Of a DNA stretch of 64,000 nucleotides, positions 9,316-62,133 are shown piece after piece. The notes beneath the pieces are model-generated. The model made no database searches. It was not told where the DNA came from and saw only the letters and a list, made by a program, of their open reading frames with translations. The translations under genes were made by a program, and so were the position numbers. The stretch comes from Medicago truncatula (taxonomy: Eukaryota; Streptophyta; Magnoliopsida; Fabales; Fabaceae), in assembly GCF_003473485.1 (NCBI RefSeq), contig NC_053044.1, positions 37,886,091-37,950,090 of the forward strand, given 5' to 3'. The first letter of the stretch is position 1. Each line of letters starts with the position of its first letter.

Positions 9316-10992
9316 TCATGAGTCTTCATAGAACGTATACGGCTTCGCAACAACAAGAAGATTTTCTCTCCTGTGCATTGAGATGCCAAAAACTTCAGTG
9401 AGATCCAAGTCTTTTGCTGTAATACAAGGAGGAAGCTCCCAATCAAAGCTATAGAGGAGTTGAGCTAGAGCAAGCTCAACAACTGCAATGGCAAATGTAA
9501 TAGCCGGACAACCTCTTCTGCCTGCTCCAAAAGGTATGAGCTCAAAATCCTGCCCCTTATAATCAATATTACTTTCTAAAAATCTTTCTGGTTTAAATGC
9601 AGTCGGATCCTCCCAACTTTCCGGATTCCTACCAATTGCCCAAGCATTGACAAAAATTCTTGTTTTAGCTGGAATTTTGTACCCTTCTAAGATAATATCT
9701 TCCATGGATTCTCTAGGGACTAATACTGGTACTGCAGGGTGCAGCCGAAATATCTCTTTAATTACAGCCTTCATGTACTGCAGTTGATGCAAATCACTCT
9801 CTGCAACAACTCTTCTTTCTCGCAGGACGCTACGCACTTCCTTTTGTGCTTTTTCCATTACATGAGGATTCATTAGCAGCTCTGTCACTGCCCAATCAAG
9901 GGTAATAAATGTTGTATCAGTTCCAGCAGCAAACATATCCTGCAAAAAAAAAAGGGAGAGAAACAAAGAAGTATTGTCAAAATGTCATTAGTCAATTCAG
10001 CAAAGTGAATAATATCTCATGCCTTATCCACTTTCAACACACTGAGAGATAAACCACTACATGGTTATTAAGGCTTCATCACTTACCAGGATTATTGCCT
10101 TGATATTATCAATGGTAAGAGGCATCTCGCCCGAGTCATTCTCTTGTACCTCAAGTAAAATATCTACAAGGTCCTTATGCTCCTTTATTTTGTTGCAAGC
10201 CTTGTGTTCACTCACTATCTGATCAATGAGTTGATCAAATTTTCTTGAAGTGTCTTGGAGTCTTGCTTTCATACCTGTCAAGCTGTGTATGAAATCGAAA
10301 GAAGGAAAAAAATCACCAACGCTGAATCCTCCAAGGAGTTCCTGGTACTCATCAAGCATCTTTTGAAAACCATATTTTTTACTCTCTCCTCCTTCTGTAA
10401 AGTCCCTTCCAAATGCTACACGGCAAACAACATTATTTGCATAAAGTCCCAATATCTTGGACAAATTGATAGCTCCTGGATAAGACCCTGCAACCCTTTC
10501 AACTAAACTAGCAACTTCTTCTTCTCTAACAACACTGTATGAGTTTACCCTTTTGGCACTTAGAAGCTCAAGTATGCAAATTTTTCTCACATGCCTCCAG
10601 TAAGCACTGTAAGGAGCGAAAGCGATGTCTGTACAATTGTAAAAGAGGTACTTAGCTGAAAACAGTTGCGGTCGGCTTGCGAGTGCAAGGTCATGTGTTT
10701 TCAACACCTCCTTTGCTAGTCTAGCTGATGAAACAACCACTGTTGGGATTTCTCCAAGTTGTAAGAAAATTATGGGTCCATATTTATCTGCAAGGCCTTG
10801 TAAACATATATGGGGCATGGTGCCAAGCTGGTGGAGATTGCCAATGAAAGGTATTGTTGGAGGACCAGGAGGTAGATTGGAACTTCTCTTTCTAGAATTG
10901 TTTATGAAAAGTTTCATCAATAGAGCTATGAAAATGAATACACAGAGGAAGAATGGTTTGTAGCTTTCCATGAGCCATTGGAACATAGCCAT
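9316..10992 (-). CDS. cytochrome P450, CYP71 clan, two exons
   Basis: Exons (minus strand): 10992-10087 and 9939-9316, with one phase-0 intron at the usual A-type P450 position after the IKAIIL segment. The product is 509 residues, full length for the family. An N-terminal membrane anchor (FFLCVFIFIALLMKLF) precedes the hinge PPGPP. The second exon opens with DMF and the I-helix motif AAGTDTT, then the K-helix ExxR (EIFR), PERF, and the haem loop FGAGRRGCPA. The residue after Cys-Pro is Ala where most P450s have Gly, a variant that may be tolerated in the clan. The protein should sit on the ER and use cytochrome P450 reductase to oxidise a small lipophilic metabolite; the substrate cannot be told. 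Start: the ATG just before the anchor. Confidence 0.92.
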
Positions 10993-11306
10993 TTGATAGA
11001 ATGAGGGAGTGTAGTTTGCAAAGTGCTACAAGATGTGGTGCAGCTATGTTAAGATTTAACCTTATCATACTGTATTTTTTTAGGGGAAAAAAACCTTATC
11101 ATGTTGCATGGTTCCATGCAAAAGTGTGACCACCTGTAGAGGAAACCAGATTCACTACATTAAAAGAAAATATCTCTTCACTGACCTAGATCAGTCGGCT
11201 CACACTCACATTATACTTTCTCCGAATCATCTTTGCATAATATACACAATTAATTTGAGATCAGACGATTAAGATTAATTATTGTGTAACACATTTTTTT
11301 AAGAAG
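10993..11306. other. 5' flank of the minus-strand P450
   Basis: Upstream, presumably promoter, DNA of the leftward P450. No motif is convincing enough to call. Confidence 0.4.
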
Positions 11307-17745: not shown

Positions 17746-17889
17746 TTACAAATATTACCGCAATAAAAAGAGCATAAAGACTAGTGTCCGTCCTTACACT
17801 AGTATGATATAAGGTTACGACCAAATTTGAAAAAATATGTAATCAAGAAACACACATTTTCTATGAAAAATCAAACGACTCAAGAAAGC

Positions 17890-19853
17890 ATGGCGTTTCT
17901 GCAGCCACCAGTTCTAAAGCAAATGTTGTATGAGAAAATTTCAACACAATACTTAACCATTATCTTCTGCTTCACTAGCCTTGTGTTTGTGCTTAAATTG
18001 ATAAGAAGAAATAAACAAAATTTGCCTCCTTCACCACCAAAGCTACCAATAATTGGCAATCTTCACCAACTTGGCACACTACCACACCAATCCTTCCATG
18101 CACTCCAGCCATTGTTGTTTCATCAGTACAAGTGGCCAAAGAAATATTCAAAAACCATGATGTTGTTTTCTCCAACAAACCGCCGAACACGGCTGCAAAT
18201 ATCATTCTCTATGGATGCACAGACGTCGCTTTAGCACCCTATGGAGAAGAGTGGAGACAGAGAAGGAAGATTTGTGTTGTTGAACTTCTGAGCATGAAAA
18301 GGATGCAATCTTTTCAGTCCATAAGAGAAGAAGTAGCAGAAATTGTTAATACTTTAAAGGAAGCATGTGCAAGTAAAGAGTCTTCTATAGTGAATCTGAG
18401 CGAGATGCTGATTGCAGCCTCAAATAACATAGTTTCAAGGTGTGTTCTTGGACAAAAGTATGATACACCAGTTGGTAGTGGTAGCTTTGGAGAGTTAGGA
18501 AGGAAGATGATGAAACAATTAGCAGCTTTCAGTGTTGGAGATTTCTTTCCTTCATTGGGTTGGATTGACATTCTTACAGGCCAAATATCTGAATTTAAGG
18601 CCACTTTCTGTGCATTAGATTCTTTCTTTGATCAGGTGATTGCAGATCACAAGAGAATGAAGAAGAGTGAAGATGGCCAATCAGACAAGAAGGACTTTGT
18701 GGAGATACTACTTCAAGTTCAAGATGGTGCAAAGTATGATTTTCCACTCACAAATGATAACATCAAAGCAATCCTAATGGTATGCTTCTTCCTCTATTTT
18801 TTTCCTTCCTATTTCTTAGCAGATATCACATCACTCTTAAGAATCTAGGTTGAGCATAATTCGGACCTAATTCCACTTCACAAAATCGGTTTGTAAGTTG
18901 AGAGTAAATTTCCTAACTTTTACTTATTACCACTATTTAGGCATATCACTATCAAATTTCGCCTGTTGGATTCAATTTATTTGAGCTTGTGTACTAGCAT
19001 AAAAACTTGTGTGACTGAGTGAGCTTATGAAAACAATCTATGTCATGCGCATAAGTTGTTTTCAGCTTATTTTCATAAACTCTCCATGATAGTTTATGAA
19101 AATAGTTCGTACGGAAACAATTTAACTTAATTTTACCACTTGTCATAAAAATAGTTTACGCATAAATGTGATAAGCGTTTATGCGATAAACACTGAAATG
19201 AGTGTTTATTCAAACTAGACATAGTCGCGCACGCCCAACTTAAAACAAGAGCATAAAGAATTTCCATTTTCACAATTTCAGGACATGTTTGCTGGAGGAG
19301 GTGATACTTCTTCAACACTTCTCGAGTGGACATTTGCTGAGCTCATGAGGCATAAAAACATCATGAAGAAATCCAAGAAGAAATAAGAAAAGTTGTGGGG
19401 TATAAATCAAAAGTGGATGAAAATGATCTGAATCAAATGAACTACATGAAGTGTGTAGTCAAAGAATCTATGAGATTACATCCACCTGCACCTCTTTTGA
19501 TACCTAGAGAAACTTTATCCGATGTGAGAGTAAAAGGGTTTGATATTCCATCCAAAACAAGAGTGTCTGTGAATGCATGGACAATTCAGAGGGATCCTGA
19601 ATTTTGGAACAAGCCAGACGAGTTCATTCCTGAAAGATTTGAAGAACAGCCAGAAATTGATTTGCAATACATTCCATTTGGTGCTGGGAGAAGAGGATGT
19701 CCTGGAATTTCATTTGGACTTGGTTCTACTGAGCTTTTGCTTGCTAATCTTCTCTATATGCAAGATATAGACATGAGTGAGATTCATGGGCTCACTGTTA
19801 GCAAGAAAGTACCACTTCATCTTGAACCTACACTACACTCATTCCATGAATGA
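17890..19853 (+). pseudogene. decayed CYP71-clan cytochrome P450
   Basis: Two exons can be traced, 17890-18779 and 19282-19853, in the same architecture as the intact P450 that follows. N-terminal anchor, PPSPP hinge, GGGDTSS I-helix, ESMR, PERF and the haem loop FGAGRRGCPG are all present. Compared with that neighbour, about 45 bases are missing near 18103 (loss of the KYGPL..LHLGQ segment, with a frame change), one base is missing near 19373 (frame change before EEIRKVVG), and roughly 14 codons are absent near 19757 (after ANLLY). With two frame changes it should not yield a full P450. The start is the ATG at MAFLQPP; an in-frame ATG lies further upstream at 17827. Confidence 0.85.
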
Positions 19854-20602
19854 TGTTTCACCTTTATTTTCCTATATTCTTTTAAGAACACTATTGTCTT
19901 TTTTCTTTTTTCCTTTTTGGTAGATTGCATAGCTTATATCTGGTATGGTAATTTAGTAAAATAGAAGAGTAAAGTGCAGAAATTATACTTCCTGCTAGCT
20001 AGTTTGATAGTGTACTCTATGGAGGTCAATCTCTCCCGTTGTATACGTGCAAAGAAAATCAAATTAAATAATTAAATACTCGATTAGGAATTTTATTTCA
20101 AGTCTTGGTCATATTAGTCTTCCCTATTTGAATCGTGCTATGATCTCTTGGTTTTGCCATTGGATTTGTGTTTTGTCCTTGTAGAAAGATATACTCGATA
20201 GATACTTTGTTAGAGAGATATTAAAATATTTTATCAAGAAATATTCTTTGTTGAAACTATATTGTCTGACAAAAACAGTGTTTATACATTTAGAAAAACT
20301 GTAAAAATGAAACATGTTACCGCGTGTATATGCAGATATTTGAGAAATCTGCCGAAACACCGATTTAAAACTGCACTTCTACATCTTATTCTCCTTTTTC
20401 TTGTAGAGTGTATCACATTATTCTGATTTAAAAAGGGCACATACTCCATTGCCAATTCTAATCCTTTTCAAATATGCCGCTCTATTTGGTATTATATGGG
20501 TCTGAATCTCATCAGAAGAATTGCGCCACCAACTGCCACCTAAATGCAACACGTATATCCCTTTTTTCTGTAGATTCTTATGGTACGAGGTTAATTTCTC
20601 AG
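19854..20602. other. intergenic DNA between the tandem P450 copies
   Basis: Presumed 3' flank of the decayed copy and promoter of the intact one. No other feature was seen. Confidence 0.5.
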
Positions 20603-20610
20603 TATTTATA
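20603..20610 (+). promoter_or_regulatory. TATA box of the downstream P450
   Basis: TATTTATA lies 75 bases before the ATG at 20685. Transcription from it would begin around 20630-20640, after the in-frame ATG at 20616, which supports 20685 as the true start. Confidence 0.45.
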
Positions 20611-20684
20611 CACACATGCATAACGAACCAACATCATATACATCAAAGAAAATACATAAACATAAGTATTTTGTATCAATCAAC

Positions 20685-22357
20685 ATGTTGGAAGGAAGAA
20701 TGTTTCAAAATCTACCATATTCATTTCTAAAAAAAGTACCACACGATCTAAATGCCACCCTTTTCACGTTTCTTTCGTTCTTCATCAGCATGTTGCTGGT
20801 GTTCAAGTTCAAAGTTAGAAGAAACAAATTAAATCTACCTCCATCCCCACCTAGATTGCCAATAATTGGCAACTACCTTCAACTAGGAACACTCCCTCAT
20901 CGATCTTTTCAATCCCTCTCACAAAAGTATGGTCCTCTAATCATGTTGCACCTTGGTCAGCTTCCTGTGTTGGTGGTTTCCTCAGTACATATGGCTAAGG
21001 AAGTTATGCAAACACATGACACTGTTTTTGCGAGCCGACCATGCATGACATCAACAAAAAACTTACTCTATGGATGTAAGGACATTGCGTTTGCATCTTA
21101 TGGTGATACATGGAGACAGAAGAGGAAACTGTGTGTGATTGAATTGTTGAGTCAGAAAAGGGTGCAATCAATACAGTTTATTAGAGAAGAGGAAGCTGCA
21201 TCATTGGTTGATAAGATACGTAAAGCTATGAGTTTGAGTAATGGTTGTTACGGTGTGAACCTTGGCGAGATGTTGCTAGAAACTGCAAACAACATAATCT
21301 GTAGGTGTATATTTGGAAGGAAGTATGATGGTGATGGTTGCAGATTTGGAGAACTTGGCAGGAGGATAATGGCTCAAGTTTTAGATCTTAGTATAGGAGA
21401 TTTGTTTCCTTTGTTGGGTTGGGTTGATGTTCTCACTGGCCAAATTAAAAATTTTAAGGCCACTTTTGAAGAAATGAATGATTTCTTTGATAGTGTAATT
21501 GTCGAGCATAAGATGGCTACGAGGGACCCCAACAAGAAAGATTTCCTCGACATTCTCCTTCAACTTCAGGATGATGGTCGTTCAGAGTTAGACCTCACAC
21601 AGAATGACTTAAAAGCACTGTTAATGGTTTTTCTTCTATCCCTTTCTCATCATAGAAAAATAAATCCAGTGACAATTTATATCCAAATATTTGCAACCGC
21701 GATTATGACTATTTTATGTTTCCATAATTTCAGGACATGTTTTTAGCAGGAAGTGACACAACTTCAACTACAGTAGAATGGGCTATGGCAGAGCTTGTAA
21801 AAAATCCAGCCATAATGAAGAAAGCACAGGAGGAGGTAAGGAGAATTGTAGGGAATAAATCAAAAATAGAGGATAGTGATGTCAATCAAATGGAGTACAT
21901 GATATGTGTAATTAAAGAAACTTTGAGGATGCATCCAGCTGCTCCTCTTTTGGCTCCTAGAAAAACAACATCTAGTGTTAAACTCGGTGGGTATGATATT
22001 CCTGATAAAACAATGGTATATGTCAACACATGGGCAATCCATAGGGACCCTGAATTTTGGGAAATGCCAGAAGAGTTTCTACCTGAGAGATTTGAAAACA
22101 ACAAAGTTGATTTCAATGGTCAAAACTTTCAATTTATCCCGTTCGGTTCTGGGAGAAGAAAATGCCCTGGTATGGCGTTTGGGCTTGCTTCCACCGAGTA
22201 TATGCTTGCTAATCTTTTGTATTGGTTTGATTGGAAGCTAGCTCCAAATGGCGAATCTCTTCAAGACATAGACATGACTGAGAAATTTGGGATCACAGTC
22301 AACAAGAAAGTTCCTCTGTGTCTCCAACCAATAGCATACAATAATTTCGAAGAATAA
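20685..22357 (+). CDS. cytochrome P450, CYP71 clan, intact
   Basis: Exons 20685-21626 and 21734-22357 give 521 residues. The layout is an N-terminal anchor (LFTFLSFFISMLLVF), the PPSPPRLP hinge, WRQKRK in the C-helix region, the I-helix LAGSDTT near residue 318, the K-helix KETLR, PERF, and the haem loop FGSGRRKCPG with the Cys ligand. The single phase-0 intron before DMF is standard for A-type plant P450s. It and the decayed copy just upstream are clearly tandem duplicates (shared TGQI.FKATF, WRQ.RK.CV.ELLS). Likely an ER mono-oxygenase of specialised metabolism; the substrate is unknown. An in-frame ATG at 20616 would add 23 residues but lies before the expected transcription start. Confidence 0.94.
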
Positions 22358-31016: not shown

Positions 31017-32291
31017 GTATGTCTTTCTATGCTTCTCTTTTCCCTATTCTCAAACCAATTTTTCTGTTCCTTTTTCAATTCACTTGTCTCTACTCTAATC
31101 AGATTATAGCTTGAAATTCAATAACTCAATCTTCAGCTCATTATTTTCTCCTACCTAGCTCAAAATTGTACTTCAAACAGTTACACTTCAACTGTTCTAA
31201 ATTGTGACTCTCAATGATGGATGATTCTATATCGTCGTGTTTTTTGCGTTGTTTTAGACCTTTGGTTTAGATAGCTCAGTGTTGTTAAATAGCATAGCAA
31301 AAATTGAACTAATCCCTATTATTCCTCAATATACTATTTAGATCATAAGACAGTCGCTTAGAAAACAAGATTGTTACAATTTAGAACAGTTGAAGTGTAA
31401 CTGTTACAATTCCCTTGAAGTATAATTTTATCAAACTACTATTTTCTGCAATCTACGGTATATAACACTGAGATAGCTCGCTCAGTTATGGGATGTATAC
31501 AAGAAATATAATTTATTCTTTTTAATTAAACCTCTGTCTGTGTGTGCTAATGATACCATTGATACGTAGATAAAACAAAATTTATGATGACATACGACGT
31601 ATAATCCAAGGTAAAGATTTATCAACCATTGTTTAATGGTGATTTCTTTATCTTTAAATTGAACAACATATCTATGTTTTCATCATCTTAGTCTTTCACC
31701 GTTGCTCTTCATCCATCTTCCCCAGAACACATAGTAAGCTCCTAAATTCACCCCCAACCCCCCTAAGTAATGTCTTACTTGCAGCCATACAGGAAAAGTA
31801 TTTTAAAAAACAAGTGCTGTCCTTAACAGGTTCATCCCCTCACCCCCCAAAAAATATCCTTATTCTTAATTTCACTAATTACCAATGTTATGTTTATTAA
31901 TTCTTAAAAACTTATTCTGTAGTATATCAAAGTTATATCTGTTACCTATGTTTAAATTTTATTTGTACAAATTGGAAAAACATGCGGAACCGGAATGGAA
32001 ATTACATTTGGCTAACTCAGATCAATGGACTTATGTTATCCCCAAGTAGGCTCTTATGCAGTAAAGGGAAACTACTTTCTGATAAGAAAATGCTAGATAG
32101 TTCAAATAGAAGCCAAGTTAGCTACCCTATAGTTAGTTTGTTCAGTGTATAATTTGTTTCTTAATCTGTAACCATCTCTGGATGTTTGCTTAGAGGTTGA
32201 GAATGAATTGATTGGTTCCTGTTAGTTTTTTTTTAGACTGGGCCTGGGAAGTACTACTTTTTTGACATGATAGATGTTATATGTATGGCAG
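31017..32291 (+). other. probable 5'UTR intron of the diphosphatase gene
   Basis: A donor-like GGTATGTC at 31016-31023 and an acceptor GTATGGCAG ending at 32291 would join a leader at about 30900-31016 to the 19 bases before the ATG. This is inferred from splice signals only; transcript data would settle it. Confidence 0.45.
31160..31435. repeat. inverted repeat with a 29-bp perfect core
   Basis: The 29 bases at 31178-31206 (starting ACAGTTACACTTC) are the exact reverse complement of 31376-31404. Weaker pairing extends outward (AAAATTGTACTTCAA with TTGAAGTATAATTTT). The arms are 169 bases apart. It may be a MITE; no target duplication was identified. Confidence 0.8.
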
Positions 32292-40313: not shown

Positions 40314-41201
40314 GTGTGAAGGTTCTGTTCTAATGTTCGAACCACTGCTCAAACTTTCCACCGCTTATAATAACTTTAGTTTTATTCCATTTGTGAAACT
40401 TTTTAATTTTCAACATATACTTTTTTGTTTTTGTAAAACTATTCTATGGAGTTTTATTGAATATATAATCACCATCCTAATGCCATATCATTTTTTATAT
40501 CTAATTGTTTTAAAAATTAAATTAAAATTTTAAGTTTAAGTAATTTTATTTACCTATATTCAACAAAACTTTAAGGTACCAAAAAAATTTCATATTTTTC
40601 TTCTTCTTATTTTTTGTTGAAATGACATTGATCGAGTAGGCATCTTAATTGTGAGGACAAGTAATACCTTAAGCCTCTAATTATGAAGAGTGGTCTTGGT
40701 TATTGTTAATCTACTGTATTTCCTAAGGAAATATATAGTAGATAAAACCTTGGAATATACTTTTAATGCTTGGAAATCTACTATATTCCCTAAGGTTTTA
40801 TCCAATTTATAAGATTTTACGTCAAAGAAAGGTAGATGAGATGAAAGGAATCCATCAACATCTTTACAATTGCATATATATGGACTAACTCAGCATTTAG
40901 CCTAAAGACAAAGAGTCCTTGTCTGTAATCAGCAACCCTCAAATTGGGAAGAAAAATGCTAGGGAAATTTTTGAATTTATTTGATTCTAGTGATTGAATT
41001 TGATCATTGCCCTAGCTGAGGAAATGTAACAAACAGAAGATCCATAACAGTCCACGTGCAATAGGATAACGTTCCAACTGCTTAAGAGCTAAGACATGCA
41101 CACTCGACCACACCCACATAATAAGTTAAAATAAAAAGCAAAAAAGAAAAGTAAACATAACAAGAAAAGTAAGTAGTGTTTGGGTAACAGGCCTAGCATA
41201 T
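40314..41201. other. AT-rich intergenic DNA
   Basis: No gene, RNA or element with ends was seen. Confidence 0.45.
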
Positions 41202-41641
41202 TTCTTCTTAGAATTCTGCTCTTCATCAAGCACATTTTGCTCGCGTCCTGCAGCCGTTCCAAATTTACCCTTACGCTAGTTAACTCACGCAAGTGTAAAT
41301 GTATGCGCTAGTTAACTAACGATGCGCAAGTGTAAAACACTGTGTGAGTTAACTCACACAGACATTAACACATGCGTGATGTGCATACAACCAGAAGAGG
41401 CAGGAACCTCTATTATTTTTTGCAATCCTTCTTTCATACATTCATTCAAGCAAACATTTTTCATCATTCATTCAAGCATTAAGTCATAAGTATATTACGA
41501 AAAATAACGGAATAAAACAACAGAATAAAATAACGAATAGTGTGATAAAAACGCTAAAAAGCGCAAGTGTTACAGGATTACAACCAAATCCAACAAAATG
41601 TCAAACAAAAAAAACTACACAAGTCATAAAAGCTACACAAG

Positions 41642-44279
41642 TCATACTGATCCATCCCGTGGACTCCTAATCCTCCTCCGCGGAGCCGGCACCTGCTCCA
41701 GCATGCTCCACTCAGACTGTATGCTCTGCATCAAGCGCATAACCTCCTCTGGATTATGAAACACAGCAGGATGTCCCATTGCACCGTCCACTCTGGCTCT
41801 GATGTTGCTGATGATCTGGTATGGGTCTGGAGGATGTCTAGCCCACTGCTGCTTAACAATAACCTCATCATAAGGAGGGACAGGATGAGGAGGGCCAGCA
41901 GCTGCATAGTCAGGAATGGGCGCAGGGAGGTTCACAATAGGATGTGATACTCTAATGAATCATCTCATGTACCCCCTAGTATGAGACCACAGATGGTTAT
42001 CCGGAACCGGATGACCCCTATCCTGATGGCTGAGGACATGTAGAGCAAACTCCGTGAAGACCTGGCCACGTCATCCGCCGCAATAAGCTCAATGTCAGTA
42101 GGAGCCCTGGGAATAGTCTGTACATACCCGTACTGCCTAAGAACCCGCTCTGGAAATTGACGGACCATCCTGCCACTACCGACCATGATCCATCCGGAGT
42201 ACCAGCATATGTCCTGAAAGGGCGTGATGTGTCGTCGTCTCTCGTACGGCCTCCAGGTGACATGTGAATGGTCCAACGAATCGATGACAGCTCTGTAGTA
42301 TCCAGGATTAGAAAAGCCCCTTGGAGGTTTCCATTGACTCACAAGAGGGGAAACAGCAGGGTCGTAGGCATCATCATCAATCCTCGGAATGATGTTCGAG
42401 AAGTGCGCCAAAGTCCATCCTTGCAAACACAAAGAAACAAATATTTATATCACCGCAAGAATTATACAAACAACTAAACATTTACAATCCAATAAGTAAA
42501 AAAGAAGGAAAAACAAATATTACCACAAGCAATGTCATGTAACCACCACAGGAGGCCACAGATGAGTCGGAGGTAAGAGATAGCTGCTCATATAGGAAAG
42601 CAAGTATCATCCCACCCCATGACCAGCTGTCCAACTCGTCCATATCTTGCAGAGCAAGCAGCCAAAGAAGATTGATGTTTTTGCTGTTCTTCTTGGAAAA
42701 AATGGTCCAGTCAAGCAAGAGCAACATAAATGCATTAATGCAGGCCAGCCTAACTTCAGCTCGCTCGTCTTGCTCCTCCTGTGTATCAGTCACAAGCAGC
42801 TGGTTACACCTATTCAAGAGCTCCTCGTAGCGCCTCTTCAGTACATCAAAACTGACGTGAGCAACACCCTTGTTTTGTCATCTCCTTAGCGGCAGCTGTA
42901 ACAGCTCGATTTTTAGCTAGATTTATTTTAATTTATTTTATTATGTGTTTTATGTGTTTGTGTGTGATTATTCATCATTGGGTGCATTTTCATGGTTTCT
43001 GTGTCAGAAGGGTATTTTAGTCATTTTGGACGTAGGGGTATTTTGGTCATTTTGTGAGAACGGGTAAATTATAAGTTTTGGTGAGAATTACTTTTAGTGA
43101 TTAGTGAGAACCGATGTTTTACTAAGTTACTAGAGTAAAATTAAGATTTTACCGTTTAGTGACCGTTAGTGATATTTTACCGTTATTAGTGAATTACCGG
43201 TTAGAGTGTAGAAACATTTGAGATGTGAATAGAAATGAGTTAAGTCCATTAAGTTGAGGATTAGGCCCAATTGTGAGACACACTATATAAACCTACACTT
43301 ATGAGAAATTTCCTCACACTTTCATTTCACTAAGATATTTTTGAGAGAATAGAGAGAGAAAGTGGGAGCAAGAGGAGAAAAGGATTAGAGAGAAGAGAAC
43401 TTGAAGAATCAAGGGTTGGGAGAAGAGCTAGGAGCAAAATTGAAGCCTATGCTAGAGAGATTAACCTACTAAGGTAAGGAGATTAGAATTCATCATAATC
43501 ACTTATTGTAATTTTCAATTATTTGTATGAAAAGTGTTTAATTGGATGAATTGATTAATTGTTCATAAGTGATGAAATTCGTGCTCTAATTATGATGTCA
43601 TGTTTATGAGGTATGAAGTTATGGATAAATGAATTGTTGTTGGTTGAATTACATGTTCAAAGTATGTAAAATGGGTATGTGTTTAAAATATGCTCAATTG
43701 GTGAATTATGCATTGTTGTTGATGAATTATGATAAGTTTCATGATCCTTAAACATGTTTAACTACTGTTAATTCCCTAAAACCTAATGGAACAATGATTA
43801 GCTTGCCTAGACTTGAAATTCTTTATTTGAGTCTTAACTTGGGAATTTTTTGGAATTTCAAACTTTTGTCGAAAATAAACTTTTGCAAACATTGGGATTT
43901 ATAAGTTGAACCTACAGCTCATATAGACTTAGGTATAACTTGTAAGAGTGGTCAAACATCTTAATCACGTCAAAAGTGATATTTCGGGTGGGAATGTAAA
44001 AGATTGTAAAAATGAGATTTTGGTGTGAACTTAAGTTATTCTCGGGTTAATGACTAATGATCCGGAGGTGGCTTAAATTCATGAATACATTGTCGATTAA
44101 GATTGTTTGAAGGTTTTCAACTTGTCTATGTTGTTTTTTCTTGGGACTTATCATAGGAGGGCGTAATGCTTGTTTCTCCCTCCGTGCAGTACCAGTAGGG
44201 GCAGGCCTCCCTGCCCTAAGTCTGTCACTCCTATCCTGAGACGGCTCAGGCGGTCTCTAAGACGTATTCCTCCGAGGCA
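41642..44279 (-). pseudogene. plant mobile domain (MAIN-like) gene, broken
   Basis: The minus strand starts at 44279 with MPRRNTS and then RPPEPSQDRSDRLRAGRPA, the usual N-terminus of transposon-borne PMD genes. After an insertion at 42897-44153 it resumes with HVSFDVLKRRYEELLNRCNQLL, GGYMTLL, then GWTLAHFSNIIPRIDDDAYDPAVSP, ITPFQDICWYSGWIM, ERVLRQYGYVQTIPRAPTDI (42434-42040), and DYAAAGPPHPVPP, QQWARHPPDPYQIISNIRARVDG to a stop at 41642. The N-terminal half of the PMD is largely missing, and the rest has at least one frame change (near 42050) and in-frame stops (near 44259 and 41957). PMD proteins such as MAIN and MAIL1 act in plant gene silencing and meristem maintenance; this copy cannot do so. 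The surrounding MULE explains its position. Confidence 0.8.
42897..44153 (+). mobile_element. solo LTR-like fossil (probable Ty3/gypsy) nested in the PMD gene
   Basis: The segment begins TGTAACAGCTCG, the TGTAACA start common in plant gypsy LTRs, and a plausible end is TTATCA at 44148-44153, giving TG...CA. A TATATAAA-like promoter motif lies near 43286. It interrupts the PMD coding sequence. No internal retroviral domain was seen and no matching 5-bp duplication, so either the right edge is misplaced or a deletion accompanied it. Broken; age uncertain. Confidence 0.45.
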
Positions 44280-45031
44280 TATATACACAAAATTTAACAT
44301 AACACAAATTCATTGACACATTTTCACACGCACATTGTGTCATTTCCAACAATTCAACAACAACACTAAAATTCCAACAATGTCATTTCAATCCGTAAAC
44401 TACCACATTGCAGTCAAACATATTATAATCAAAATTAACAAACCATATCTAACTAATTTGATAATTCACAATCCAAAAAACAAAAATAATTACCATAGAG
44501 ACATTTTACCAAACACATAGTGTGCAATTTTCAAACAACTAGGTAATCTAACAATTTGTAAACCCTAAACTACCACATTGTACTCTAAACAACTTCTAAA
44601 CAACAATTTCTAAGTTAATTCATCACTAACAATCATCAAAACTAATATGCAAGCAAAATTTTAAAACCTAAAAATGTTATATTTCTTCAAAAAAACTAAA
44701 ATTTCTACAAGTTAAATGCAATGAAGTAGGATAATCATCACTTACTTGATATTGTAGGAGTTTTTGGCTTTGAATGGCGCAAGAATGGTGAAAATCGCAC
44801 TTGGAGGGGAAAATTTTGTGTTTGGAGAAGTTGGAAAAATGAGAAGTTGGAAAAACGACTTAAGTAACTGCTGCGTGAGTTAACTCACGCTACGCTACTT
44901 AAGTGGCGCACAAAATACAACGTGCACAAGTTAAGACACGCTGCATGACTTAACTTGCGCAGGGGTAATTTAGGCAACGCTGCAAGGCGCGAACGAAAAG
45001 TGCTGAATGAAGAGCAGCATTCTTCTTCTTA

Positions 45032-46400
45032 AACTTTGATATCAAATTCAACGATCTATTAATTCGGGGACAAATCTCTCTATCCATTAGTGGAAAATCC
45101 ATTTAAAAGTGGCACAAAACTCTATATGAATTAACTCACATAAGTTTGCACTAAATAGATTCGAATAAGAGACATTAAGAGGAGTATGCTATAATGTCAT
45201 CAAGATGCATGCATTTTTGTTTGAGTAATGAATGCATTAGTAAAAAGAAAAAATTGAATTATAAACTTCAAAGTTCTCTATGTTGTATGTCTTAATCAGG
45301 GATGTAAATGAAGCGAGCGGGTGTGGAGGCGAGGGAGTACTTTCCCGTATGAATGGTCTAAGGGTTAAGCAAGTCAAGTAAGGACTTCAGGCCTCAAAAT
45401 TTGGAATAAAAAAAAGGCCTCAAGAAAATTTAATTTGGTTATAAAAATATATATTATGGAAAATAAATTATTCACTCTTGATCATGGGTTCAACTTGTCG
45501 ACACCAATTTTTTTTTCTTTTTAAGTTATTTTAAAAGGCCACATTAATATTTTCTTTTTTTTGATTTAAGCCTTCATGGGTCAACTCTTCGACACCACAA
45601 AATTATTTTTTAAAAGATTATTTTAAAAGGACTCATTATTTTTATTGTTTATTATTTTTATAGTTTTCGATATCGTAATGTGTTTTGAAACCGATGTTGG
45701 AATATATTCCATGGCCATGGTAATAGAAATTAATTTGTTTTTCAGCCATACAAATTACATATTATTCTGACATAAAAAAATGATTTTTCTTTATAAAACT
45801 AACCAAAACATGGCTTGCACATTCAACAAATTTATTGACCTCTTTCTACAAAGTTTTTTTTTTTGTTGAACAAATCAAACCTCTTTCTACAAAGTTGATA
45901 CATCATTAAACTCATTATCACATATGTGTAGTGTAGATGATCCTACAACTAAGTTCAACGTCATTTAAAATCAATGGGCTAAGAAAATGGATCAAGCACA
46001 TTCGAGATTTATAAAGTATAAATATTTTATGGGCTAAATAAGTTTTTGGTCCCTATAAAAAAAAAGTTTTTGGTCCCTATAAATATAATTGATTTCTTTT
46101 TTAGTCTTCATAAAAAAGTACATGTTTTGGTCCCTGTAAAAATTTTCAATATGTAGTTTTAGTCCGAGTTAAATTAAAATTTGTTTAATTATGCTTAAAA
46201 TTGTCAACTTTTGAATGATTTTTTCACAGACTTGTTTAAAATATTATAAAAAGTTTATCCGCACACTCCTCAAAGTCTCCGGTTCAAATCTCCCAGTGTC
46301 AATTTGAGTAGGCTAGTTTACCTTCTTAAAAAATAAAAATTTATCACCACAAAATAAGCTTAAAATTTAATTTTTAGGTACAAATTCTTATTAATTTTAT
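45032..46400. other. repeat-rich intergenic DNA
   Basis: A GGTCCCTATAAA-type repeat end occurs twice at about 46040-46083, resembling the termini of the MITE in the AFC2 intron. No gene was seen. Confidence 0.45.
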
Positions 46401-46549
46401 CTTAAAATTTTGACGTTTTAAAAAAATTCATATTTAATTCATTACATGTTAAAAAAATTATATTTTTTATAAAGGCGTTTCTTATAATGTTTTTAATATG
46501 TCAGTAAAAAATAATTCAAATATTTAAAAGTTTTTATCATAATTAAATA

Positions 46550-46830
46550 GAACTTTTGAACAAAACATGAATAACATATGAATTTTTAAGCGTAAAAAAC
46601 ATACAAATTCATATTTAATTTAAGTTTTGTTAAAAAAGTTCTAATTTTTTAGAGAGATTGATTTTTTGATAGTGGCCGGGGTTTGAACCCCGGACCTTAC
46701 ATATTTTATGCATTGTCCCAACTAACTGAGCTAAGCTCACGATATTTTGAGAGAGATTCTTATACTATTCAAAACATTCTCGCAAAATTTTATTCCAAAA
46801 TATGAAATCTATACACGAGTTGACTTAAAA
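46550..46830. repeat. second copy of the foldback repeat, split by a SINE
   Basis: The order CATGAATAACATATGAATTTTTA, TTTTGTTAAAAAAGTTCTAAT, AGAGATT, then CATTCTCGCAAAATTTTATTCC matches 983-1155. The copy at 980-1155 lacks the SINE and so shows the uninterrupted arrangement. Confidence 0.65.
46660..46749 (-). mobile_element. tRNA-derived SINE with 9-bp target duplication
   Basis: The minus strand has GAGCTTAGCTCAGTTAGTTG (A box) and GGGGTTCAAACCCC (B box). AGAGAGATT at 46651-46659 and 46750-46758 flank it. The related repeat near 1075-1090 carries the site once, as an unfilled site would. Confidence 0.78.
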
Positions 46831-60684: not shown

Positions 60685-62133
60685 ATTTTCCCATTAAAAC
60701 AAAAACAGATTTTAAAAAAAACGCTAGAAAATTCATTATTTATTAACATCAGCTTACAAAAAAGGGTATTTTAAAATGGAGCCAATAATACATTGTATTG
60801 TCATGTATGCTGGTTTATAATCATGTTTTAAAAATAACAATTAAATCCTCCATTCTTATTAGACGTCGATGTAAAACTACTTTTACACGTAGTGCACATG
60901 TTTTTTTTTTTTTCTCTCTTTAAAATTAATTGTATAACATATGAAGATGATGATTTTTCATTGAATTGAATGTAAGTGTAAAATTTTCTTACGTTGACGA
61001 CATATGTACTTAAACCAAAAGAGAAATGATATTTGAATAACCACTTTTTGACAACTTTTGTGATAACTTTCTCTCTCATACTCATATTATCTTTTTACTT
61101 TCTCTCTCTATTGCTTTAATTTTTGTGCCAATACCTAAATTTCTTTGTATAATTTAGTTGTCTAAAAGATTGTCACAAGAAATAATTGTTCAAATATCAT
61201 TGCTCAAACCAAAAATAGGTAAAAAACAAAGTTTGGAAATAGCTCCTAAATTTTTTTTAAAAATACAGATGCTTATTTTAAATTTAACCGAATTATATCC
61301 CCACAATAATATCTTTTGTATACATAAGCTACGTAACAATATGCGACAGAAATAATTGTTGTTTTCAAAGATGTAACTTGACGGTATGAGTTTAAACATT
61401 AAGTGTATGTATGGTTTTATGTTGACAAAAATTGTTTTTGAGTGAATTAGATTATGTAAAATTGATTTTGCTTAAAAATGAGTTGAAGTAAAGTAGTTTA
61501 TGTTTGGACACATTTATTTAAAATTGATTTGAATAATAAGTTTGAGTGTTCCTTAAAAAAAAGTTTTAGCGTTAAAATTAAAAGCTTGAAGTAAAATCAA
61601 TTCTTAAGGAAAAACAGTACTATTGAAAAACAACCAAACATAACCTAGTCAATTCTAAACTTCTAGAATCAATTTTAACTTATCTAAAAGTAAAATGGAT
61701 CATTTACTATAATGATGCTCAATATAATATCAAAACCAACGAGTTACGACTCATGCAAACAAATTAACTTAAGAAATGTATTAGGAAAACACATAATATC
61801 ATTACAATCAAATCTCCTTAAAAAAAACATTATAATCAAATAACAAAATTAATTTTGTATCTTTACACGATATAGACAAAATTCAAATAAATTAATTTTA
61901 AAATTAATAAATACTTTAAAAGTATAAAGCCTAGAAAGATCTTATAACAATGATAAATACAGTCAGATAATAAATACTTTAGGGATATTGCATAACGTTT
62001 AAAATGTGTAAGCTTTAACCACTAACCCACATTATGTTACTTAAAAAAAAAAACACAAAACCTAAAAAAAAAAAAAAAAAAAAACAGCAATAATAAACAA
62101 AAAAGAATGAATTAATTATGATTATGAATAAGC
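60685..62133. other. AT-rich intergenic DNA upstream of EF-Tu
   Basis: No gene or element with ends was seen. A-runs lie at 62042-62083. Confidence 0.45.

Follow-up and report, generated by a model that had tools for sequence, protein, structure and literature searches.

The segment at 41211-45022 of the window (the whole 64,000-nucleotide stretch of Medicago truncatula DNA that was analysed) is an old, decayed Mutator-like element (MULE) of 3,812 bp, which is bounded by inverted ends and a 9-bp target site duplication (TSD) and contains a sequence homologous to the plant mobile domain (PMD). We consider it likely that this is a dead, non-autonomous element, most likely derived from a MUDR-type MULE carrying a PMD gene opposite the strand of its transposase. 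The earlier note had described a Mutator-like element that carries a PMD gene and has a 9-bp target duplication, and this description holds. Its further idea of a mobile copy does not extend to a working silencing factor, as positions 1-108 and 296-347 of the PMD profile were not found and the PMD of this copy is very probably a pseudogene. The features of the element are listed in Table 1.

Table 1. Features of the PMD-bearing element and its flanks, in order of position in the window
Feature	Position	Strand	Basis or remark
Left target site duplication, TTCTTCTTA	41202-41210		Direct reading; same as 45023-45031
Left terminal inverted repeat, core	41211-41291	+	Repeat finder and gapped alignment with random-segment control
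22-bp perfect palindrome CTGTGTGAGTTAACTCACACAG in left end	41340-41361		Direct scan
Open frame, taken as PMD 3' part (putative)	41642-41959	-	After TGA 41960-41962; presumed from the general layout of PMD proteins
PMD domain, profile 179-295 of 347	42100-42426	-	Pfam E 8.9e-13, 48.6 bits
Probable intron, GT...AG	42420-42523	-	Between the two PMD ORFs; splicing predicted
PMD domain, profile 109-180 of 347	42524-42739	-	Pfam E 6.6e-11, 42.4 bits
AT-rich stretch, ~1.26 kb	42897-44155	+	Ends approximate, placed by eye; upstream of PMD ORFs
Putative PMD gene start	44140-44280	-	Presumed ATG at 44280; open after a stop at 44257-44259 (codon 8)
18-bp perfect palindrome GCGTGAGTTAACTCACGC in right end	44873-44890		Direct scan
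Right terminal inverted repeat, core	44942-45022	-	Repeat finder and gapped alignment
Right target site duplication, TTCTTCTTA	45023-45031		Direct reading; same as 41202-41210

Inverted ends and target site duplication

The boundaries at 41211 and 45022 and the exact TTCTTCTTA flanks, both given in the earlier note, were borne out by direct reading. The two copies of the duplication are identical at 9 of 9 bases and each directly abuts an end of the element; two random 9-mers from the window are identical with a chance of 1.6e-5. The long inverted repeats proposed for the ends were confirmed as well. The repeat finder, which gives the left arm as 41210-41291, reports inverted arms of 82 nt with 78% ungapped identity, while a gapped local alignment of the ends spans ~157 bases per side (157-158), the weaker gapped similarity reaching ~41367 on the left and ~44865 on the right. 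The ends are just 78% alike and their similarity past ~82 bases rests on gaps, which counts against the MUDR-type origin preferred here, and the terminal inverted repeat (TIR; 82 nt, 78%) does not reach the 100 bp or the 80% that a published screen applied as thresholds (PMC3310237, in part).

The similarity of the ends was compared with that of random segments. A total of 2,000 random 120-mers of the window were drawn, and 1,737 remained after removal of those starting less than 4.5 kb from the left end. The 120-base ends of the element align at a score of 47.5, whereas the random 120-mers (n = 1,737) reach at most 18.0, with a median of 9.5, so that shared low-complexity words, a worry raised in the earlier note about the ends, are a poor explanation; to the extent that a single copy permits, this disposes of the worry. 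A blind search of the whole window for a perfect 9-bp repeat together with at least 15 of 20 inverted end bases returned four places, among which the element scores 17/20 and the other three 15, 15 and 18. The same search on ten first-order Markov sequences gave no place in eight of them and one in each of the other two. The inverted ends and the duplication are far above chance. The window, searched for further copies of the element ends, yielded no second copy. Just beyond the right end, 25 bases at 45116-45140 are 84% like 41334-41358 in the left end, a similarity that may be due to chance or represent a relic.

Both ends contain palindromes with GTTAAC as their core. The motif GTTAACTCACGC, which is related to the 22-bp palindrome, has 11 matches in the window at no more than two mismatches, against 2.4 expected, and nine of these 11 lie in the two ends. 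The end palindromes may act as putative transposase-binding or stem-loop motifs. In addition, the two ends (44861-45022 and 41211-41390) are richer in CpG than the flanks and the inner parts; their observed/expected ratios are 1.12 and 1.21, compared with 0.43-0.63 in six other stretches measured, although the ratios of the ends rest on 9 and 11 sites, which are too few to conclude from. A high CpG content in the ends (20 sites in all) is unexpected for an old methylated element.

The plant mobile domain sequence

Two ORFs on the minus strand match the Pfam family PF10536, the PMD, at 42.4 and 48.6 bits, above the curated cut-off of 34.9, in agreement with the strand proposed for the PMD in the earlier note. 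The cargo is assigned at the level of this family, by profile score; the label 'MAIN-like' in the earlier note would be a narrower claim, one of membership in the PMD-C (MAIN/MAIL) clade. The profile continues from one ORF to the other across a GT...AG gap (position 180, then 179), with the reading phase mismatched as read, and the PMD gene would probably have had an intron at 42523-42420. The two ORFs being consecutive in the profile across the GT-AG gap supports the descent from a PMD-carrying MUDR-type MULE. A PDB search with one PMD ORF gave a single non-significant match (E 0.75), and Rfam gave no matches over 40900-45400. Compared with viral contigs, the PMD fragment produced seven pattern stretches, none of which was confirmed, as expected for a plant sequence.

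The PMD profile was found only over positions 109-295 of 347. The frame of the ORF at 42524-42739 is closed on its 5' side by a TGA at 42878-42880, and profile positions 1-108 are absent from all 79 stop-to-stop fragments of at least 25 aa on both strands of the element. Positions 296-347 were not recovered even when the downstream frames were read through the stop, and no open frame held the whole domain. As to the proposal that a PMD gene is the cargo, the homology stands, but only the middle of the domain was found and ~1.26 kb of other sequence adjoins it. The PMD in the element looks like a pseudogene, a verdict reached because the front third is missing and the frame is closed, the small lesions not being its basis. 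This copy of the element is very probably unable to make a PMD protein.

The AT-rich stretch adjoining the matched ORFs has a GC content of 0.316, compared with 0.486 and 0.570 on its flanking sides, and is probably an insert. Inspected by eye, it is LTR-like in having a TG start, a TATA-like word and CTATATAAAC, and appears to resemble part of a retrotransposon LTR. A reading of this internal stretch as a clean solo LTR was not supported, as the ranges scanned hold no TG..CA ends paired with a duplication of 4-6 bp, and the direct repeats of 5-7 bases seen in these ranges are probably chance. The matches of the stretch to the rest of the window are weak, the best being 61% over 157 columns with an E of 0.002 under lenient scores.

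For the parts of the gene outside the matched domain, a tentative model was drawn from the general layout of PMD proteins, in which the gene presumably started at 44280 and ended at 41642. By this model, the reading frame would change at 42870-42877 and again at 42061, and a stop would lie in frame at 41960-41962, and whether the stop at codon 8 is a lesion hinges on the inferred start at 44280. The frames 44047-44256 and 41642-41959 have no Pfam match on their own, and 41645-42070, with an X at the stop, matched no Pfam family. Joining the downstream piece to the matched ORF, with an X placed at both the junction and the stop, did not lengthen the match (179-294 at 46.3 bits vs 179-295 at 48.6 bits), a result that either speaks against the gene model downstream of 42061 or reflects a weak last part of the profile. 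The downstream lesions are graded as inferred because Pfam gave them no backing. The 3' frame, which lacks a Pfam match, was also compared with contigs of prokaryote genomes, giving 50 stretches and no confirmed one, as expected for a plant sequence.

Search for a transposase

The Pfam scan took in all 79 stop-to-stop fragments of at least 25 aa from both strands, in batches of 45 and 34. Transposase, Mutator DNA-binding, zinc-finger and SWIM families were matched by none of the 79 fragments at E up to 0.5, in a scan of fragments of this length that a badly decayed transposase might escape. The earlier note's statement that the cargo comes without MURA is upheld, with a MURA-type domain in 0 of the 79 fragments. 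A MURA-type DDE transposase is required of autonomous MULEs only, and as no transposase domain was detected, the element is filed as non-autonomous.

The PMD is the sole credible Pfam family among the fragments. Ten other Pfam names in the batch of 45 (E 0.0054-0.47), including DUF1985 (E 0.014), which overlaps the PMD match, and three more in the batch of 34 (E 0.12-0.24) were dropped as chance. A 19-base word from the ends had one match in viral contigs, which was set aside as chance, the common words being just 12-19 bases long.

Origin of the element

Under the origin from a MUDR-type MULE, a transposase supplied from elsewhere, in trans, would have bound the inverted ends, excised the element and pasted it into TTCTTCTTA, producing the 9-bp duplication. 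In the intact ancestor, which would have held both a PMD gene and a transposase gene, the PMD gene would have been transcribed inward from the right end, where a promoter may have been located. The window and the viral and prokaryote contigs yielded no transposase-bearing relative, which counts against this ancestry. The present copy would have lost the transposase gene or never have carried one. The front third of the PMD would have been lost, probably with the ~1.26-kb LTR-like insertion, and the element would then have decayed.

Less probable, though a serious candidate, is a Pack-MULE, in which a non-autonomous MULE would have taken up part of a host PMD gene by transduplication, with no transposase ever carried alongside it. 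A partial PMD with a probable intron inside is what capture at the DNA level is expected to leave, and no transposase remnant was found. In contrast, the presumed gene from 44280 to 41642 would have filled the element and so be more like the element's own gene, yet its outer parts have no Pfam match. Pack-MULEs are a recognised kind of element (PMC3310237, in part), whereas the PMD is a standing extra gene of published MULEs (PMC6446971, in part), which favours the MUDR-type origin.

It is unlikely that the element represents a MULE family that spread with the PMD as its only gene and an external transposase, the PMD perhaps acting on the element's behalf, for instance by countering silencing. 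No transposase was seen in the element, and Ikeda et al. speculate that captured PMDs act in anti-silencing (PMC5418596, in part), both in line with such a family, but a single broken copy is uninformative on a family and this one very probably cannot make the protein. Somewhat more doubtful still is a particular form of this idea, an unreported legume MULE family with a stand-alone PMD as its only gene, GTTAAC-cored palindromes as putative transposase sites and an anti-silencing role for the PMD. A legume PMD-MULE family was not recognised, by title or by the start of the abstract, among the matches listed in a search of mainly non-subscription literature. Finally, it is highly improbable that the ends are low-complexity words with a PMD fragment merely lying between them, for although the duplication is a TTC-type repeat and TTCTTCTTA occurs three times on the plus strand of the window (two being the flanks) and twice on the minus strand, none of the 1,737 controls came near the score of the ends and the duplication abuts those ends exactly.

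Other features of the window

A small MITE-like element of 185 bp lies at 61012-61214; its ends match in inverted order at 18 of their 20 bases, and AAACCAAAA flanks it as a perfect 9-bp repeat. Its size and 9-bp duplication may be like those of the peanut AhMITE1 type. A repeat shared by 960-1084 and 46421-46660 is 81% identical over 119 bases (968-1084 vs 46545-46660) and has inverted copies beside it, and a 24-bp tandem with GTTTTTGGTCCCTATAAA occurs nearby at 46036-46083. The inverted repeat formed by 31176-31208 and 31373-31405 (33 bases, 97%, 164 bases between) may be a small element of the foldback type, or a hairpin.

Cytochrome P450 genes were found at 9316-11025, 17803-19853 and 20595-22357. 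The P450 matches in Pfam fall at 9316-9984 and 20595-21746, and the label of 18114-19757 rests on its DNA likeness of 67-71% to 20973-22222. Near 18015-18234 the frames overlap, which suggests a frameshift. Other ORFs in the window are of the DUF868, transketolase and EF-Tu types, and together with the P450 ORFs they are consistent with a flowering plant.

Comparison with known PMD-bearing elements

A rice MULE provided the first description of the PMD, which later turned up in Ty3/gypsy elements as well (PMC5418596, in part), and its presence in both gypsy elements and MULEs is also stated elsewhere (PMC9289625, in part). It is an extra gene in several plant MULE groups, dicot groups included, as tabulated in PMC6446971 (in part). 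The novelty implied by the earlier note does not survive these two accounts, the rice MULE (PMC5418596) and the tabulated groups (PMC6446971). An anti-silencing role of the MULE-borne PMD is a speculation (PMC5418596, in part), and the idea of counter-silencing is repeated in a review (PMC8616336, in part). It is reported that Eudicots have mainly genic PMD-C (PMC7156037, in part), and a PMD borne by a transposable element in a eudicot is therefore worth recording, although the tabulated MULE groups with a PMD already include dicot ones.

The element is a further example of a DNA transposon that carries a PMD gene along, and it bears on how one domain came to be common to transposons and the silencing proteins MAIN/MAIL. 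A broken copy alone adds little, and its value is that of a seed for a survey of intact relatives by means of the ends and the PMD fragments.

In the parts of the literature cited, MULEs have TSDs of 8-11 bp, and the MUDR group, with members named from soybean and barrel clover, has TSDs of 9-10 bp, TIRs of 30-320 bp and an antisense PMD in most members (Dupeyron et al. 2019, PMC6446971 Table 1). With the MUDR/MUDRAVI2 MULEs that carry an antisense PMD (PMC6446971, in part), the element shares a 9-bp TSD, a TIR within the range (82 bp core) and a flowering-plant PMD; it differs in having no transposase and an incomplete PMD, and it is likened to them by TSD, TIR and PMD alone. The PMD-C encoded by MULEs of grasses and Amborella is likewise carried by a MULE, but there it is fused to the transposase (Ikeda et al. 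2017, PMC5418596, in part), whereas the PMD of the element stands without one. Pack-MULEs are, like the element, non-autonomous and gene-bearing, with TSDs of 9-11 bp and long TIRs; they capture sequence from a host parent gene, and the element is likened to them by structure alone (PMC3310237, in part). The element adds to the PMD-bearing MULEs that have been published from flowering plants (PMC5418596; PMC6446971, both in part).
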